The notes under the pieces are model-generated. The model was not told where the DNA came from. It made no database searches and saw only the letters and a list, made by a program, of their open reading frames with translations. Source: Candidatus Zhuqueibacterota bacterium (GTDB lineage: Bacteria > Zhuqueibacterota > Zhuqueibacteria > Oceanimicrobiales > Oceanimicrobiaceae). Taken from it: 52,626 nucleotides of DNA. The DNA lies in NCBI GenBank assembly GCA_029262005.1, contig JAJDAG010000063.1, forward strand, positions 1 through 52,626, given 5' to 3'. Shown here piece after piece: positions 44,416 to 52,522 of this stretch. Each line of letters starts with the position of its first letter. Positions within the stretch are counted from its first letter, which is position 1. The position numbers and the translations under genes were made by a program.

Positions 44416-45945
44416 TTATAATTTAGCCTTCATATTATCAAATTTGTTTACAATGTATCCGCCTCCCTCCACAATGCGGAAAAGCTCAGTGAAAGCTCGC
44501 TGCAATGCCAATCTTAAGCGTATTGTGGCCTCATTCTCCCGTGGGAAATCTTGTGCAGGAGCAGCAGTCAGCAGGTGTTTGGAAGTAAACGGAATCGGCA
44601 TTTCAGACACATTAACCGGGATATACATGCCGCCTGTGGTGTCTGCCAATGCTTTAAGAATCGTGCGATCAGCCTCACTGCCAATCCCTATTGTATACAC
44701 GATAACACCTCTCGACAGCATTTCATGAATTAGGCTGTCGGGATGAACACCATGGTTGTGTTGTCCATCCGACAGTAATATAAATATCTCAGGGCAGGCG
44801 AAATCGGCAGGCATCTGGCTAAGTGCTTCTGCAATTCCAAGGCCCATGCCGGTTGCACCGCCACCCGGTATGTTCACAATAACGGTTGTGGTTGTGGTCT
44901 GCTTTGTTGCGGTAACATTTTCAAGTGCAACCTCGCCATTTGCAGTGTTGGCAAATGACACGGCTCCGATTTGATAAATATTGCCCCAACCATCTGTGTC
45001 CGGTAGCGCGTTTATGAACTCAGTGGCTGCATCCTTGGCAGCAGTCAGCCGGTCTTCCGCTCCGATGTTGTTCTCAGGTAGCATACTACCAGAGCGATCG
45101 AGAAGAATAACAATACGACGTTCATTAGTAGCATCCAGAAAAGTCGGGCCAACCAGTGGTTTGACACCGGTAAGCGGGAAACGTGTTTGCGTAGAAACGA
45201 CCTCCCAGCAGGACTTACCTGAATGCGTTTCGTTTTGATAGTTGTTCTTTAGAGGGTCATGATTCGTAGTGTCACAAAATTGAATTAAGGTCGGGATTTC
45301 ACGAACATATCTACCACAATCATCCGTTATAAATGTACCTGAGGAAGGTCTGGTATAATAACTATCCATGAGGCAGGCTGTTGCATTACCGGGACACTCA
45401 CTGGGAACATCTCCGGGACCTTCATATTCGTCGCGAATGTCATACACCAAATGTGAAAACTCATGCGCAATAGTAAAATGCCCACGTTCTGAGTCTTCGA
45501 TACGATCCCAATAAAGCTTGACACGGTTCATGACATCCTCCGGACTGCTGTCATAAACCGGCACTTTCGGTTCATCCTCGTTAACAAAACGAATGCCATA
45601 TCCTCCGGGTGTAGCGCGTGATTTGGCACAGCGTGTATCAAAAATAAGAAAATCTGCATAGCCGGTTGCCATGCTGTTATTGCAGATTGTTATTCTTCCA
45701 AACTGGTGATTTCCGCGTGTGGCAGTGTGGAAAACCTTGGAAGCGGCGATAAACCTGGCCTTGACCGCATCAATTTGCGCATCGCTTGCCGCGAATTGAA
45801 TTGATACTATAAAATCGAATTTCCCAGTAGTCGGGTTAAATTTACCGATGCCGGCCCAGGATGCCGCGGTTACGAAAAGCAGGAAACAGGCAAGCAGACT
45901 GAAACCAATGGCAGCGTTTCTTAATGATCGTCTTGATCTTTCCAT
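44416..45945 (-). CDS. Secreted CLCA-like metalloprotease with von Willebrand A domain
   Basis: A 509-residue exported protein. The signal peptide is SLRNAAIGFSLLACFLLFVT, cleaved near residue 31. Residues 40-255 carry the zinc-protease pattern HEFSHLVYDIRDEYEG (His161, Glu162, His165, then Asp172-Glu173), matching the HExxHxxxxxxDEY of animal CLCA proteins, and downstream cysteines with IQFCDTTNHD and CWEVV in the same order as CLCA. Residues 275-440 are a vWA domain with full MIDAS: DRSGS (283-287), Thr in GGATGMG and Asp in LLSDGQHN. CLCA1 is a self-cleaving metalloprotease, so similar activity is likely. The ATG lies inside the end of the CHAT gene (25-base overlap) with AAGGAG upstream. 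It is the last gene of the sigma-CHAT cluster. The C-terminal 65 residues are unassigned. Confidence 0.88.
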   Translation of the reverse strand: MERSRRSLRNAAIGFSLLACFLLFVTAASWAGIGKFNPTTGKFDFIVSIQFAASDAQIDAVKARFIAASKVFHTATRGNHQFGRITICNNSMATGYADFLIFDTRCAKSRATPGGYGIRFVNEDEPKVPVYDSSPEDVMNRVKLYWDRIEDSERGHFTIAHEFSHLVYDIRDEYEGPGDVPSECPGNATACLMDSYYTRPSSGTFITDDCGRYVREIPTLIQFCDTTNHDPLKNNYQNETHSGKSCWEVVSTQTRFPLTGVKPLVGPTFLDATNERRIVILLDRSGSMLPENNIGAEDRLTAAKDAATEFINALPDTDGWGNIYQIGAVSFANTANGEVALENVTATKQTTTTTVIVNIPGGGATGMGLGIAEALSQMPADFACPEIFILLSDGQHNHGVHPDSLIHEMLSRGVIVYTIGIGSEADRTILKALADTTGGMYIPVNVSEMPIPFTSKHLLTAAPAQDFPRENEATIRLRLALQRAFTELFRIVEGGGYIVNKFDNMKAKL

Positions 45946-48900
45946 GCTTTTCTCCTTTTTAGGTTATACCAAACACTGAATAAACATAGAAGGGAAAAAA
46001 CTGCACTCGGTAAAAAGTAGTTCTCTAAATAAATTCGGTTCCCTTGCCCGGGATCGCCATAAAGCGTGAAAGCAGCCCAAAAAACCGGATGCTTAAACCG
46101 CGAATTTTCTCCGTTCAAAATGTCGCGCTTGGCTTTGGCCAATGCCTCAGATTTGGACAGATTACCGTTTAGAAACTGCTCATAAAAGTTCGGCATAAGC
46201 GTGGCTGAAAAAGCGTCTTCAACCTTCCAGTGGGTCATGATGACAGATTTGGCCCCGGCGCTCAGGAAAAGCCGGGGTAACCCCAAAATACCTTCCCCTT
46301 TCACCGGGCGGCCTCTGCCGGTTTCACAAGCGCTCAGGGAAATCAAATCATAGTCAAAGTTACGTTCTGAAATCTCATAGCCGAGCAACAAGCCATCGTC
46401 AAGCGTGTCTTTTGGTGCCAAAGCCAAAACCAGGCCTGAAAAAGAATCGTAGAGGCTGTCGACAATTCCGTGTGTTGAAATGTGCAACAAGTCATATTCA
46501 TCAACGCCGGCCAGCATGGCTTTTGCGGTTGCGGCCAATTTGGTCAATACCTTTGTGCGCGCATAAGCGCGTTTGATATCGTCTGCCTCAATTTCCGAGT
46601 CAGGCAGTGGCTCCATTTTAAATCCACTGCGCATGTGCACATCCTGTAGTTGTTTTGTCGCTGTTTGATTTGCGGCTTCAATGGGCTGACTATCGGTTAA
46701 AAGCGCCAAATCCTCAAAAGGGTTGGCCATGACCAGCAAATTCGGTTTTTGCCAAAACCAGCGTTCCGGTCTGGTCAGCAAAGTCGATGTCGGCAGGTAG
46801 ACAAAGGCGTAATCTTGCTGCAAAAAATCACGCGCATAAACCGGGTCCTGAGTTGGTAGAAACACAGCCGACGCTGAGGCTTCTCTCAACAGCAATTCAA
46901 ATGGGAGATTTAGCAGGGCCACATCCGGAATGATGATCAGTTTGTCGGGAAGGTTTACTTTAGCCTCCAACGGCAGCACCAATTCCCGGTAAAGTTCGTG
47001 CGCCAGGTTTGCGTGAAACGGTGTTTTGAATAGTGTGCCCGCGGTCATTTTGTGAAAAGGTGCGACCAGGGTCGTTATCTTGTTTTCAGCCTCGGTTGCG
47101 GTGATTTTTAGGGGAACGAATTTTTTCTGTTGACCGGTAAATACCAAGGCAAAAGAGACATCATCCGTCAAGTGGAATTGCACCAATCCCATTTTAGATT
47201 CTTTTAGTTTCTTTTGCAGCGTCGGAATATTTGGGCCGCGCGTTTCACTTTGACTGCTTAACCCACTGCGGGTCAGGCGCAGCCGCTGCGACAGCAAAGA
47301 CATGCGTGCTACTTCAATCTCGTCAAGCGTTTTAGCCAGTTGTTCTTTTTGCAGATTGGCAGCGTTGGTGCGCAGAAAACGTAACTTGCGCTGCAGGTTA
47401 TTACACGCTTTGCTGTAATTTGCTGCTTCCGCGGTTCCCAAGTTTTCATTGGACGTTATCTTGACCATTTCCCGCAAAGAGCGGCCACGTTTCATTTCGA
47501 TGAAGTGGTGAAGTGCATCCATGTAACTGACTTCATTATTTTGCATATAAAGTTGATAGTAGCAATCTATCAGGCCGTCATAGACGTCAGTGCCTTTAGC
47601 AAAATAGCCGATTCTGAAATCAGAATTTCTTAAATGACCGCGTGTGTTTTCTATAAGATAAGATGATTTTTTATAATTTGCGATGGCGCTCTGGAAATCT
47701 CCGGTCGTTTGCCTGAGGCGACCCAAGCCGAAGTAAACAGCTGCAAGCGCACTGCTGTCGGCAAGTGCGCTTACTTCATTTAACGCTGACAGCAACCGGT
47801 CTTCTGCTGTTTTGATGTCCCCTTTTCGCAGGGCAATTTCTGCTAAATAATATATTGCCCACACTCTGCCTTGTTCATCTTGTATTCTTTTCGCCACCTT
47901 TTCAGCAGCAAGAAGGTCCTTCGTAGCTTTATCAAGGTTGCCTTCTTCTATGTATGTGCGGGCCCGCCTGTAATACCAGTATGGATCCCGGGCGAGACCT
48001 TCAATTTTATTGGCAGCCCTGATTTCGGCTGAGTATATTTCCCGCGCTTGCTTGAATCGGCCTGTTTCCAAATGTATATCGGCAATGCCGATTCTGGCCT
48101 TTGAACGCAACAATCGCAACGGTTGGTGGTTAGCGGCCAGTCTGATTGCTTCAGTGTAAAAAGCAATGGCAAGCCGATTTAGTGAGACGTTTCGATAGAG
48201 GTCGCCTTTGAGCCTTTTAATGTGGATTAGCTTTTCTTTGTATCCGACTGAATCTGCTGAGCCGGCGCTGAGATCGTAGTACTTATTCGCTTCGTCAAAA
48301 CGTCGCATCTCCATTAACAAGCGCCCATAATGGAGATACCAGGTTGCCAGAGCACGCTCTGATTTTTGAAGTTTGGCAATAGCAATGGCCTGTTGAATAG
48401 ACTGCTCAGCTTTAATAAAATCCCCCCGCTTTGTGTACATGATACCGCGATTTCCCGCTACTGTGGCTAGCCTGGTGCGATCGCCGAGCCGCGTGGCAAT
48501 GGCATAAGAAGAATCGTGATATGCCGTTTCCAGGGGGCTGCCAAGGTGCTGTGGCAAAATAGCCAGATTGACATACAGTTTCGCGAGAACGGCCAATTGG
48601 TTTTCTTTTCTTGTCACGGCCAGGCCGAGTTGCCAAAGTGAATCAGCCTGGTCGTACTTTTCAAGATATTTGTAGCAATTGCCCCAGGCGTATATGTTTT
48701 CTGACGCATTTCTGACTGCTTCAGGAAGTTTCTGAAATTCTGTTGCAGCGGTTTCGAACTGTTTTCTGGCGTAAGCCCGCAGGCAGACAATGCGCGCCCG
48801 GGTCACAAGGTCGAAGGTCAGGCGATCAAGAAAAAATTCATCAATTATTTTCGAATACTTGTTTTCAAACATAAGATAATCTATAAGCATGTTTGAAGAC

Positions 48901-49313
48901 GGATTCGTTGTCGTAAGCAACGCTCGCTGAAAAGCTTGGTTCGCAGCATCAATCTGGTGATTCTGCTGGTGGATTTTTGCCAGCATCCAGTTGCTGTGGT
49001 GCATAAGCGCCTTTTCCGCAGCGCGGTCGGTGAAAAAATCATCAGCCAGTTGGGTTTTGCCTGCCAGATTACATTCTTCAAGCAGTCTGAGATAAGCGGT
49101 TTTAAAGTGTGGATTTTTTTTGATATGGTCCTGCAGCTCAGCAATGAGGTCAATGGTCGTATCCGAAACAGCAGACTGAACCATTTGATAATACCGGGCT
49201 GTTGAGCCAGGGTTCAGGGGCTGTTGCGCTAAGCAAACAGATGCCAGGAGTATAAGAAGCGCCTGCCAAACGTGTGGCAGTAATATTTTTAAAAGAGTTT
49301 TTTTTGCATGCAT
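45921..49313 (-). CDS. Secreted, membrane-anchored TPR-CHAT (caspase-like) protease
   Basis: About 1130 residues from the ATG at 49313, chosen because it opens a signal peptide (AKKTLLKILLPHVWQALLIL, cleaved near CLA-QQ); a TTG frame from 49406 adds 31 residues in front. Residues 40-620 hold about ten TPR-type helical repeats (for example YTKRGDFIKAEQSIQQAIAI and YFGLGRLRQTTGDFQSAIAN), then a linker helix and the CHAT domain (about 750-1085). The caspase-like dyad is visible: His948 in HISTHGIV and Cys996 in SLSACETGRG. A last helix (about 1099-1116) followed by KRRK should anchor it with the catalytic part outside the cytoplasm. Best-known CHAT proteins, including Craspase TPR-CHAT, are cytoplasmic. 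Neighbours: a Gly-tailed unknown upstream, the CLCA-like gene overlapping downstream. Confidence 0.92.
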   Translation of the reverse strand: MHAKKTLLKILLPHVWQALLILLASVCLAQQPLNPGSTARYYQMVQSAVSDTTIDLIAELQDHIKKNPHFKTAYLRLLEECNLAGKTQLADDFFTDRAAEKALMHHSNWMLAKIHQQNHQIDAANQAFQRALLTTTNPSSNMLIDYLMFENKYSKIIDEFFLDRLTFDLVTRARIVCLRAYARKQFETAATEFQKLPEAVRNASENIYAWGNCYKYLEKYDQADSLWQLGLAVTRKENQLAVLAKLYVNLAILPQHLGSPLETAYHDSSYAIATRLGDRTRLATVAGNRGIMYTKRGDFIKAEQSIQQAIAIAKLQKSERALATWYLHYGRLLMEMRRFDEANKYYDLSAGSADSVGYKEKLIHIKRLKGDLYRNVSLNRLAIAFYTEAIRLAANHQPLRLLRSKARIGIADIHLETGRFKQAREIYSAEIRAANKIEGLARDPYWYYRRARTYIEEGNLDKATKDLLAAEKVAKRIQDEQGRVWAIYYLAEIALRKGDIKTAEDRLLSALNEVSALADSSALAAVYFGLGRLRQTTGDFQSAIANYKKSSYLIENTRGHLRNSDFRIGYFAKGTDVYDGLIDCYYQLYMQNNEVSYMDALHHFIEMKRGRSLREMVKITSNENLGTAEAANYSKACNNLQRKLRFLRTNAANLQKEQLAKTLDEIEVARMSLLSQRLRLTRSGLSSQSETRGPNIPTLQKKLKESKMGLVQFHLTDDVSFALVFTGQQKKFVPLKITATEAENKITTLVAPFHKMTAGTLFKTPFHANLAHELYRELVLPLEAKVNLPDKLIIIPDVALLNLPFELLLREASASAVFLPTQDPVYARDFLQQDYAFVYLPTSTLLTRPERWFWQKPNLLVMANPFEDLALLTDSQPIEAANQTATKQLQDVHMRSGFKMEPLPDSEIEADDIKRAYARTKVLTKLAATAKAMLAGVDEYDLLHISTHGIVDSLYDSFSGLVLALAPKDTLDDGLLLGYEISERNFDYDLISLSACETGRGRPVKGEGILGLPRLFLSAGAKSVIMTHWKVEDAFSATLMPNFYEQFLNGNLSKSEALAKAKRDILNGENSRFKHPVFWAAFTLYGDPGQGNRIYLENYFLPSAVFSLLCLFSVWYNLKRRKAWKDQDDH

Positions 49314-49411
49314 TCTGGTTTTGTTTGGACGGCACTGTTCACTGGTTAAATTCCTGGCGGAGAATGTAAGCGCCAATCTCCACCAGGGCTGCTGGAAACG
49401 CCACAATATTT

Positions 49412-50029
49412 TTACGGAAAATCTCCTTCTCCTTCTTCGCCGCTGCCGGTGCCATCTCCGCCACCGCCACCGCCGGTTTTGCCAAAAAGGATGGCTGACT
49501 CAATTTTCGGTACTTTGGCTTCCTGCACCCTGACAAATAGCTTCAACGATTTTGAAAAATGCAACGGTACGCCAAAGCCAAAGGTGAGGGTGAGCACCCG
49601 GGGCGTGTCGCTGCTTCTGTGCAGCATTATGCCGTATGGGTTGTTACCATCCTTTAAGTTGAGTAGGCGCGCCTTGCCAAAATTCATATTAACCACGAGT
49701 TTGTCATCCAGGTAGAGGAAGACGGTGGTATTGTCCCCGGATGTGCCGCCTAATTTGCTCACTCTGCCGGAAATAAAGCTGCCACTAAAATCATCGGCGT
49801 CTTCATTGTCAACAGTGTCTACAAGCAGCACGCCTTTCCGGCGTGGATCATTGAGCGGAGTGCTTCCCGTGCCAGTAATATTATAAGGCCTAATATTCTG
49901 GTTGAACACAACATTTTGCAGAGATCCTCTTTTGGTTGGCGGGTCTGTGGTGATGATATCATCTTTGGTCACAAGCCTTTGCCTTTGCCGGGGCGATTCT
50001 ACACCGAGAAGAAAAACTGTGTCTGCCAT
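49412..50029 (-). CDS. Protein of unknown family with Gly-rich C-terminal tail, in the sigma-CHAT cluster
   Basis: A 205-residue protein I do not recognise. It has no signal peptide or membrane helix. The body is predicted beta-rich (VFLYLDDKLVVNMNFG, LTLTFGFGVPLHF, LKLFVRVQEAKV), and the last 25 residues are a low-complexity, acidic Gly tail (GKTGGGGGGDGTGSGEEGEG). A strong AAGGAGG site precedes the ATG. The gene lies between the transmembrane zinc-finger gene (24-base gap) and the CHAT protease gene, so it is cotranscribed. It could be a protease substrate, an adaptor or a structural partner; nothing in the sequence decides this. Confidence 0.8.
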   Translation of the reverse strand: MADTVFLLGVESPRQRQRLVTKDDIITTDPPTKRGSLQNVVFNQNIRPYNITGTGSTPLNDPRRKGVLLVDTVDNEDADDFSGSFISGRVSKLGGTSGDNTTVFLYLDDKLVVNMNFGKARLLNLKDGNNPYGIMLHRSSDTPRVLTLTFGFGVPLHFSKSLKLFVRVQEAKVPKIESAILFGKTGGGGGGDGTGSGEEGEGDFP

Positions 50030-50053
50030 GCTTTCCCTCCTTAAGTTTTAGTT

Positions 50054-51322
50054 CTACTCGCTACGCCACTTCTCACTTAACTCTAAACTACGTTGGTAAA
50101 ATCGACTGCTTGAATCAATGGCTGCCAATTGGTTGAGCGCTTTACGGGCATCTCCGGCAAAGCCGTGAGCTACGGCAAGAAAATATGCTCCTGCATCGGC
50201 ATTGGTCAGGTCGTTTTCTTTGGCCAGAGATTGCGCCTGCGTGAGATGAGCGATTGCCTGCTCATTGTGCCAACGCCTCTGGTTTTCGTCTAAGTCGGCC
50301 GTTTCGCTGCTGCGTGAGCGCGCAAAGAATGACATTCCTAAAAGGAAGTGATAGTCGTGTATAGTTTTTAAGTTTTTGTTGACTCGTTGTTGTTGCAAGC
50401 TGTTTACCAGAGGGATAAAACTTCGCAAACGGGTAATGGCTTTTTCATATTTGAGCAACCTGTAATCACGCACTGCGGTAGCGAAATGTGCCAGGAAAAC
50501 TTCCAAGTCGTTTTCGCGTGGTGCTATGCCAGGCTTTAACGCCAATTGCTTCAAATCCTTATAAGATTCAGGGCCTGCTGAAACATCACCCGGTTCAGCT
50601 TCAGGCGGAAGCGTTGTCTGTCCTGATGGAATTTTTGCTTGCCCCGCTGGTTGCGAACGATCAAAAATAAGGCCGGACCTGAGTCTCATTGGCAAGTTGC
50701 TTGTATCAAATTTAACCGGGGTATTCTCATCATAAACAAATGTGCCCCAAAACGTCCGGCTTTGCCAATATTGCCAGCCGGCGGTGCCGCCTAACGCAAA
50801 GGCAAAACAGACCAGAGCCGCCCATGCAATCGCAGGTTTGGGCATCTTGATTTCAAAGTTTCCTACATTTTTTTTTAAATGTGAAAACCACGAATCTGGT
50901 CGGATTGGCGGCGCCATTTCCAGCACAGCGTCTGCCAGGGGTGTATCCGAATAAGTTTGGAGCGCCTGCGCCAAGTCTTTGGAAACGGGTGTTAGCGACT
51001 CTTCGATGATGGCAAAGATTTCGGCAAAGCAACTATCTGAAGTGACCGCCAGATTAAGAAAATTTGCCGCTGCCTTCTGGTCAAGGGAACCATCGTAAAC
51101 ACCAGTAATTCTTAACGACAAGTCTTCAACCGAGCAAGACTGAGGGCGCTTATCAACCGTTTCATCTCCAGCAAGTTTTTTTGTTCGATTGAACAAAGTC
51201 ATGGCTTGTTCGCAGATATCACATTTTGAAATGTGCTCAATTTCGCTGCTGTCCAGCAGGCCGTTTTCTTGTATTGTTCCGGCAAATGCCTGCTGCGAAA
51301 GATGTTCTTTAGTTTTTCTCAT
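50054..51322 (-). CDS. Transmembrane zinc-finger (anti-sigma-like) protein with extracytoplasmic TPR-like domain
   Basis: About 422 residues from the ATG at 51322, preceded by GAGG at 6 bases; a longer frame to 51358 lacks this. The N-terminus carries a zf-HC2-type finger (HISKCDIC, residues about 30-37) and a helical cytoplasmic segment to about 160. One membrane helix (about 164-183, AIAWAALVCFAFALGGTAGW) follows. The outside part has a Pro/Gly linker and then helices resembling TPRs (YHFLLGMSFFARSRS, EQAIAHLTQAQSLAKEN, GAYFLAVAHGFAGDARKAL). The layout is that of a transmembrane anti-sigma factor whose outer part senses or binds something. It overlaps the preceding zinc-finger gene by 14 bases. 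Confidence 0.85.
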   Translation of the reverse strand: MRKTKEHLSQQAFAGTIQENGLLDSSEIEHISKCDICEQAMTLFNRTKKLAGDETVDKRPQSCSVEDLSLRITGVYDGSLDQKAAANFLNLAVTSDSCFAEIFAIIEESLTPVSKDLAQALQTYSDTPLADAVLEMAPPIRPDSWFSHLKKNVGNFEIKMPKPAIAWAALVCFAFALGGTAGWQYWQSRTFWGTFVYDENTPVKFDTSNLPMRLRSGLIFDRSQPAGQAKIPSGQTTLPPEAEPGDVSAGPESYKDLKQLALKPGIAPRENDLEVFLAHFATAVRDYRLLKYEKAITRLRSFIPLVNSLQQQRVNKNLKTIHDYHFLLGMSFFARSRSSETADLDENQRRWHNEQAIAHLTQAQSLAKENDLTNADAGAYFLAVAHGFAGDARKALNQLAAIDSSSRFYQRSLELSEKWRSE

Positions 51323-51761
51323 TGTCATCCTCGTTTTTTGCTGATGACTTCGCGTCACAGTAGGCGGCCCAGTTCACCCAAAATATCTCCCGGCAATCCT
51401 GGCAATTATTTAAATGTTTATAAAATGGGAGTGCAAGGTCTTCGGGCAAACCGTTTCGTAAAAATTTCAGGAGGAATAGCGCGGTCTCTTCATCTGTTCG
51501 CGGGCAGACATGTTCGGAGTAAGCGCTGTCCAGTGGCTCTGTGCGTAAACTCCCTCGATCTGTCAGAGATTGAAACAGCTTAAAGGCATTCATACAGGCA
51601 TCACAGGCCTGCAAGTGGGCCTGAAATTCAGCGCCCGGATTTTTGGTTTCAACAACGGCAAGCAGGGTGCCTGGCCGGAAATGTAAATGTCGTTCACTCA
51701 TAACCTTCGTCCATGTTAGTCTGTCACGCGATTTAAAGTTTTGAATTCGTCTGGCACTCAT
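51309..51761 (-). CDS. Soluble double zinc-finger, anti-sigma-like protein
   Basis: A 150-residue protein with two finger-like units: H49-x3-C53-x2-C56 (HLQACDAC) and C86 ... H116-x3-C120-x2-C123 (HLNNCQDC). The second has the complete spacing of the zf-HC2 anti-sigma finger. There is no membrane helix. The start used overlaps the sigma stop in TAATG; an internal ATG at 51701 with AAGG upstream is the alternative and would leave both fingers intact. Zinc anti-sigma factors bind region 2/4 of their sigma, and this gene follows a sigma gene directly. Whether it or the membrane protein downstream is the main inhibitor is unclear. Confidence 0.82.
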   Translation of the reverse strand: MSARRIQNFKSRDRLTWTKVMSERHLHFRPGTLLAVVETKNPGAEFQAHLQACDACMNAFKLFQSLTDRGSLRTEPLDSAYSEHVCPRTDEETALFLLKFLRNGLPEDLALPFYKHLNNCQDCREIFWVNWAAYCDAKSSAKNEDDNEKN

Positions 51762-52387
51762 TAAGAGTTTTTTATTGTGCGGAACCTCTCAACATTACTT
51801 GATTTATTTACTATTTTTTTAAATCGTGACTTGATAACGTCAACCGCGTGCTCATCCTTAAGGCCGAGAAGGGGGATGGTGGAAATATCTTTAGAGTGAA
51901 AATTGCCGACGACGCGCATGACAAAAATAAAAATGCCGCGTTCAAGGGTGAATGACTCTTTCCTGGTACAGGAAAGAGTGTTGCGTAAAAGAAGCACCAG
52001 CCATTTTTGCACTTTTCTCTCGACATCACCGTAAGAGGTCTGCTTTGCCTCTAACTGGAGGTCATCAATAGCCAAATTTACACGACCCTTGATTTGGCTC
52101 AATGCAATGGTCCAGGCGATCCGCAGAAGGTAAACGACAAATGCACTTTCGCTTTTTCGCTCGCGAAAATCTGTGATCGCTTTAAAATTATGAAGTACCA
52201 GACGCTCCAGCACTTTGGAAAAACAATCTTGAACAGCCTCTTCATCTTTGAGCGCCAGGTGTAATTTTGCGAGAATTCTGTCTTTGTATTTTTTTTCAAA
52301 TTCACGCCACGATGCCTCATAGTGCTTGTGGCGTTGGTTTGCCAGCACTTCAAGGAACAGAGGAAAATCATTGTCAGAAAAACCCAT
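51761..52387 (-). CDS. Sigma-70-family (ECF-like) sigma factor with diverged region 4
   Basis: About 208 residues. Region 2 is recognisable: WREFEKKYKDRILAKLHLAL, EEAVQDCFSKVLERLV and FVVYLLRIAWTIALSQIKGR. The C-terminal half should be region 4 but deviates from the usual ECF helix-turn-helix; LERGIFIFVMRVVGNFHSKD and DEHAVDVIKSRFKKIV occupy its place. The ATG at 52387 is preferred over 52393 because GGAG lies six bases before it and directly abuts the other. It is the first gene of the leftward cluster and is followed by two zinc-finger genes in overlapping frames, the order of a sigma/anti-sigma operon. It likely directs transcription of the cluster itself or of distant genes. Confidence 0.82.
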   Translation of the reverse strand: MGFSDNDFPLFLEVLANQRHKHYEASWREFEKKYKDRILAKLHLALKDEEAVQDCFSKVLERLVLHNFKAITDFRERKSESAFVVYLLRIAWTIALSQIKGRVNLAIDDLQLEAKQTSYGDVERKVQKWLVLLLRNTLSCTRKESFTLERGIFIFVMRVVGNFHSKDISTIPLLGLKDEHAVDVIKSRFKKIVNKSSNVERFRTIKNS

Positions 52388-52522
52388 CTCCATCTCCAGA
52401 ATCGGTTCCGCAGTCGTTGAGTCGTACTCAAGCAGATGTCACATCAAAAAAAGCAGAAATTGGTAGCAGAACAGGATGTTATTTTATCTTAGTTTCAAGT
52501 TCCAAGTGCGACAGTTTTAAAA

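Follow-up and report, generated by a model that had tools for sequence, protein, structure and literature searches.

A six-gene sigma-factor operon in which an exported TPR-CHAT protease is proposed to cleave a membrane anti-sigma protein

We propose that the TPR-CHAT protease encoded by the fifth gene of a six-gene sigma-factor operon probably acts like a site-1 protease, cleaving a membrane anti-sigma protein (the product of gene 3) at Arg227 of its linker and thereby freeing the sigma factor. We favour the CHAT protein as the protease of the anti-sigma because this linker residue and three residues of the CHAT domain change together among related loci. The operon lies in a window of 52,626 nucleotides from a Candidatus Zhuqueibacterota bacterium, which is the whole stretch of DNA analysed; all coordinates given without a locus name refer to this window and to its (−) strand.

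The six-gene operon is real. The first-pass annotation had described six leftward genes that overlap or are separated by fewer than 100 bases, and all six open reading frames are found at that place, with spacings of −50 (overlap) to +24 bases (gap). Its reading of five of them, as a sigma-70-like factor, a soluble zinc-finger protein, a Gly-tailed unknown, a signal-peptide TPR-CHAT protease with intact His and Cys and a C-terminal anchor, and a secreted HExxH-vWA protein, agrees with our results for genes 1, 2, 4, 5 and 6, respectively. No Cas effector occurs among the six genes, and the Cas7-11 and CRISPR locus of Craspase/CASP were not found with them; PADLOC returned weak partial matches only and no defence system.

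Gene 1 (51761–52393; 210 residues) has no usable Pfam match by itself and a weak NCBIfam sigma match (1.6e-4). A profile built from 24 relatives of gene 1 matches the solved ECF sigma chains 6in7 (2.4e-7) and 1or7 (8.8e-7), and eight of the 24 relatives match Pfam Sigma70_r2. As judged from this homology to sigma regions, seen through the profile and the relatives, gene 1 encodes a divergent member of the ECF sigma factors. The first-pass annotation had offered the finding that gene 1 is not a sigma factor as a refutation of its proposal, and the match to the ECF structures speaks against that outcome. Upstream of 23 of the sigma genes, an ECF promoter motif was not found above the level in shuffled sequences. 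By eye, sigma-70 promoters resembling TTGAC...TATATT can be seen before several such operons (upstream of the sigma gene; L012, L075 and L076). Promoters of this kind would be in line with a switch that waits in place under housekeeping expression.

Gene 2 (51309–51761; 150 residues) encodes a soluble zf-HC2 protein (Pfam, 6.3e-7, over the cut-off). Its zinc site (C86, H116, C120 and C123) is conserved in relatives, including the stretch HLNNCQDC (51393–51416), so that the protein carries both the HxxxCxxC and the upstream ligand of the class I zinc anti-sigma (zf-HC2/ZAS) motif. Gene 2 is a probable zinc anti-sigma subunit, its binding and inhibition of the sigma factor being suggested by gene order. 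Gene 3 (50054–51358; 434 residues) does not carry the same motif: one HxxxCxxC can be picked out by eye in the window's copy of this protein, which has no Pfam zinc-finger match. Over all gene 3 relatives, 14 of 21 have a TPR match and 10 of 21 a zf-HC2 match; in the type-1 group (see below), which includes the window, gene 3 has lost its zinc ligands and is accompanied by a separate soluble zinc protein, the product of gene 2. The protein had been described in the first pass as a one-helix zinc-finger protein with outer TPRs; the single transmembrane (TM) helix and the TPRs stand, while the zinc finger is not conserved. The predicted parts of gene 3 are a cytoplasmic helical domain, a TM helix (residues 175–200), a linker (201–263) and extracytoplasmic TPRs (264–433), and we propose that this one-helix protein is the membrane anti-sigma. 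A fold search with gene 3 returned mainly TPR domains, none below an E value of 0.001, and nothing for an anti-sigma domain.

Gene 5 (45921–49406; 1161 residues counted from a TTG start) matches Pfam CHAT (PF12770) at 1.7e-59 and has TPRs in addition. The signal peptide begins at an ATG at residue 32, and the protein ends in a C-terminal TM segment with a basic tail; Cys1027, numbered from the TTG, is the Cys996 of the first-pass annotation, counted from the ATG. The catalytic His979 (46470–46472) and Cys1027 (46326–46328) are invariant across the alignments. In the aligned type-1 CHATs the C-terminal TM segment and basic tail are present in 10/10, and a clear N-terminal hydrophobic segment in nearly all. 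Because of these N- and C-terminal segments and the single TM helix of gene 3, the gene 3 TPRs and the protease should, according to hydropathy prediction, both lie on the outer side of the inner membrane. The presence of extracytoplasmic TPRs on both proteins would also suit a TPR–TPR sensing scaffold that signals by binding or a change of conformation and leaves the anti-sigma uncut. This arrangement is very improbable, given that all 38 paired CHATs keep the catalytic His and Cys and that the co-change described below concerns residues of the protease domain together with one residue of the linker rather than the TPR faces. The genome encodes seven CHAT genes in all. One of its CHAT proteins (L011:6834-10139) has lost both the catalytic His and the catalytic Cys (LAVPGT, ILSKSK) and is probably a pseudoenzyme.

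The conservation of the cluster was examined in a phylum sample of 82 genomes (candidate division KSB1; 383 Mb). A profile search gave 54 clear members of the sigma subfamily (bits ≥78; the next match has 42). Downstream DNA was read for 53 sigma loci, ten of which reach a contig end, leaving 43 that are resolvable. A CHAT gene lies within 9 kb downstream on the same strand in 28 of the 43, compared with 0.18 expected from the density of CHAT genes (349 matches in the 383 Mb). Given this excess, chance is excluded as the source of the sigma–CHAT linkage (binomial p of about 2e-56, uncorrected for the kinship of the genomes). The loci follow two main layouts. Type 1, as in the window, has the sigma factor, the soluble zinc protein, the TM-TPR protein, a variable small gene and a CHAT with a C-terminal anchor; type 2 has the sigma factor, a zinc-TM-TPR protein, an HExxH membrane metalloprotease, a small gene, a CHAT and a small membrane protein. 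There are also operons with a canonical ECF sigma factor, a TM anti-sigma and a CHAT. Failure of the neighbour order to recur in any related genome had been named beforehand as grounds for abandoning the proposal; the core recurs, with a CHAT in the 28 loci above, and the exact six-gene order is found once more, in genome G003. The five-gene core is also present in Brocadia, and outside the phylum the order sigma / zinc / TM-TPR / CHAT was found in Brocadia WS118 and in one Calditrichia genome.

Several neighbouring arrangements were also seen. The genome of the window has a second cluster on contig C45 (L012:271-8304), which comprises a sigma factor, a zinc protein, a TM-TPR protein, an HEFAH membrane metalloprotease, a small protein, a CHAT and a small membrane protein; the phylum has cassettes of this kind (type 2) in roughly ten of its genomes. 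Two loci (L093 and L094) have a 1509-residue protein in place of the CHAT downstream of the sigma/anti-sigma pair. In Ignavibacteria (L181:3880-11120) an ECF sigma factor, a TM protein and a CHAT are followed by a Peptidase_M48 protein, the third unrelated metalloprotease found adjoining a CHAT. The Candidatus Brocadia WS118 locus (L118:409-9872) holds a complete type-1 cluster and, in addition, three adjacent genes of 627–755 residues on one strand with partial matches to the CHAT profile.

Genes 4 and 6 are optional. Gene 4 (49412–50029; 205 residues) encodes a beta-rich protein with a Gly-rich tail closing in FP and has no Pfam or NCBIfam match. Its family is rare, with three copies in two genomes, each immediately upstream of a CHAT gene. 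All three (that of the window, L077:12825-13397 and L110:938-1534) have the Gly-rich tail with terminal FP, and one has a lipoprotein-like signal. The same slot in other type-1 loci is occupied by small, unrelated genes, some of which encode tails rich in Pro or Gly. The fold matches of gene 4 (scattered viral and carbohydrate-active beta folds) were set aside, the model being poor (pLDDT 57). Gene 6 (44416–45945; 509 residues) encodes a secreted CLCA-like HExxH metalloprotease with a vWA domain; the zinc-protease motif reads HEFSH in the open reading frame (45451–45465) and is followed by DEY. It matches Pfam VWA at 1.1e-14, Pfam CLCA at 1.8e-5 (just below the cut-off) and NCBIfam hCaCC at 1.6e-19. 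The only full-length relative is in G003, at the same operon position. The first-pass annotation had placed the CLCA-like protease in the core of the system, and this part of it is not borne out, as such a gene is present at only two loci in the phylum. Gene 6 was rejected as a probe for the system, since its matches cover mostly the vWA domain only and include a single full-length relative.

The candidate cleavage site is in the linker of gene 3. In 19/19 type-1 relatives one linker position is basic (R or K), and in 19/19 it follows L, F or W; the basic position is the best conserved of the linker itself. In the window it is Arg227 (codon at 50678–50680), which would be cut as MRLR|SGL. In the predicted structure Arg227 falls in a low-confidence stretch (residues 224–232, pLDDT<50) between the TM helix and the TPR helices. 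Type-2 linkers have a conserved R-x-x-G followed, at a fixed spacing, by R or by M/L, mostly before G, A or S; they have in addition another conserved Arg (24/26), which takes no part in the switch. The linkers of the canonical ECF/CHAT pairs likewise contain R|G or R|S. When linkers of all types are aligned, the type-1 site falls on the first Arg of type 2, and the numbering of the site across types is uncertain.

The linker sites were recorded as R/K or M/L before the CHAT residues compared here were inspected, the Met/Leu site being picked by eye. In the first set, Glu940 (46587–46589), Asp1004 (46395–46397) and Asp1064 (46215–46217) of the CHAT domain were acidic in 21/21, 20/21 and 21/21 of the R/K loci, respectively, versus 0/8, 0/8 and 1/8 of the M/L loci. 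Nine further R loci were then added, giving 30 R/K and 8 M/L loci. Position 940 is acidic in 30/30 basic-site loci and has lost this character in 8/8 Met/Leu-site loci; position 1004 is acidic in 29/30 versus 0/8; and position 1064 is Asp in 30/30, with the Asp lost in 8/8 (one has Glu). Of the 44 columns that the R/K loci conserve, these three are the only ones to differ in both of the Met/Leu groups, which retain His979 and Cys1027. On a CHAT tree built without the three columns, the linker site and the acidic residues each switch twice, on identical branches, and 0/200 bootstrap CHAT trees require a single change only. A second sample of CHAT loci yielded no further Met/Leu case. A phylogenetic sign test of the co-change has only 1–2 independent pairs and hence no power.

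Because the co-change rests on two switches only, one of them on a long branch, it could also reflect shared descent of the cassette, with the linker Arg serving another site-1 protease or a membrane-proximal topology. The linker Arg is indeed mostly retained at sigma loci that have no neighbouring CHAT. We hold this to be the least likely of the explanations considered, as both Met/Leu groups share exactly the same three changed columns of the 44, all of them losses of an acidic residue. Glu940, Asp1004 and Asp1064 may form the S1 (specificity) pocket of the protease, by analogy with other members of its clan. Clan CD proteases that prefer a basic P1 residue (separase, MALT1 and the metacaspases) use acidic S1 residues. 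In Csx29, which cuts after a Leu in Scalindua (PMC9729208), the WKV[DE]D of the R-type CHATs is replaced by WKVRS, with a Ser at the position of Asp1064. The Craspase paper aligns the P1-reading residue of separase with Lys670 of Csx29 and not with this Ser (PMC9729208); Lys670 sits four residues beyond it. Asp1064 is therefore a tentative member of the pocket.

The co-change also bears on whether the CHAT protein is an output of the sigma factor and not its trigger. In that case the CHAT, gene 4 and gene 6 would be secreted products, with the proteases switched on by the sigma factor to act on the envelope, neighbours or debris; a different protease would release the sigma factor, and the anti-sigma would not be a CHAT substrate. 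The position of the CHAT gene downstream in the operon is compatible with this, as are the differences in genes 4 and 6 among loci and the 15 of 43 resolvable sigma loci that have no CHAT nearby, most of which have a sigma/anti-sigma pair. It would leave unexplained, however, the basic linker residue in every type-1 relative and its switching with three CHAT residues, and no autoregulatory promoter motif was seen upstream of the 23 sigma genes. We thus consider an output role unlikely and prefer cleavage of gene 3 by the CHAT protease.

Under the preferred mechanism, the sigma factor would be kept inactive by an anti-sigma made up of the gene 3 membrane protein and the gene 2 soluble zinc protein, with the TPR-CHAT protease anchored in the same membrane as gene 3 and facing outwards. 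A signal would be sensed by the TPRs of the CHAT protein or of gene 3, on which the protease would make the site-1 cut of a regulated proteolysis cascade, behind Arg227 in the outer linker of gene 3. Release of the sigma factor would then fall to a site-2 (M50) protease and a cytoplasmic protease; the genome has three M50 genes that could serve in the site-2 step. Genes 4 and 6 would be accessory parts or outputs. Cleavage, the site-2 step, the signal and the regulon are parts of the model that we infer. The first-pass idea that an outer CHAT protease acts via the membrane protein on the sigma factor is strengthened by the conserved layout, the basic linker residue and the co-change; the zinc finger of gene 3 as a conserved trait and the CLCA-like protease as a member of the core are not borne out.

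Craspase is the closest known system and the mechanistic precedent, and the CHAT profile finds the Csx29 structures at 2.8e-9. As in Craspase/CASP (Cas7-11, Csx29, Csx30 and CASP-sigma/RpoE), a sigma factor is encoded together with a TPR-CHAT protease and an inhibitor of the factor, putative in our case. The Craspase substrate is the sigma inhibitor Csx30, which the TPR-CHAT protein Csx29 cuts (PMC10028731); the Scalindua site follows Leu407 (PMC9729208), and in Desulfonema the cut falls between residues 427 and 429 (PMC10028731). Here, cleavage of the inhibitor is proposed from the co-change. Craspase is entirely cytoplasmic and triggered by RNA, whereas the operon described here has no Cas gene, its protease is predicted to be exported and membrane-anchored, and its putative inhibitor is membrane-bound, with the TPRs on the outside. 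The operon also resembles the RseA/DegS/RseP system, with which it shares an ECF sigma factor and a one-helix protein as the proposed anti-sigma; an outer site-1 cut in the juxtamembrane region is proposed here, and M50 candidates are encoded in the genome. PrsW is a further known site-1 protease of anti-sigma factors. In systems of the RseA/DegS/RseP type the known site-1 proteases include DegS and signal peptidase (PMC8103513, PMC8844934), where we propose a CHAT protease; the literature searched, coverage of which was partial, yielded no description of a CHAT protease that makes the site-1 cut in a membrane anti-sigma. ECF–CHAT neighbourhoods as such are not new: ECF54 genes have CHAT, subtilase and carboxypeptidase neighbours, and proteolytic control has been proposed for them (PMC8999054). 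Compared by description only, ECF54 differs in being described as without an anti-sigma (PMC8999054), whereas here a putative two-gene anti-sigma lies between the sigma factor and the CHAT. Gene 6 shares HExxH...DEY and a vWA domain with the CLCA / M64-like metalloproteases and differs from them as a small secreted bacterial form, under the curated cut-offs and optional in the cluster.

TPR-CHAT proteins are abundant, as the 349 CHAT matches in the 82 genomes of the phylum indicate, but a substrate is known for few of them outside Craspase; with one residue proposed as the cut site and three as the specificity pocket, the substrate question becomes easy to test. If the proposal is correct, caspase-like enzymes trigger transmembrane control of transcription in bacteria, a role that has hitherto belonged to DegS, PrsW and signal peptidase. 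More tentatively, and with somewhat more doubt than belief, we suggest that extracytoplasmic TPR-CHATs could form, across several phyla, a general class of proteases that make the site-1 cut in ECF anti-sigmas, with a pocket that switches with its target (Arg/Lys or Met/Leu), and that the sigma arm of Craspase could be the cytoplasmic branch of an older protease/inhibitor/sigma design. The sigma arm of Craspase would, if our proposal is true, gain a plausible non-CRISPR relative.
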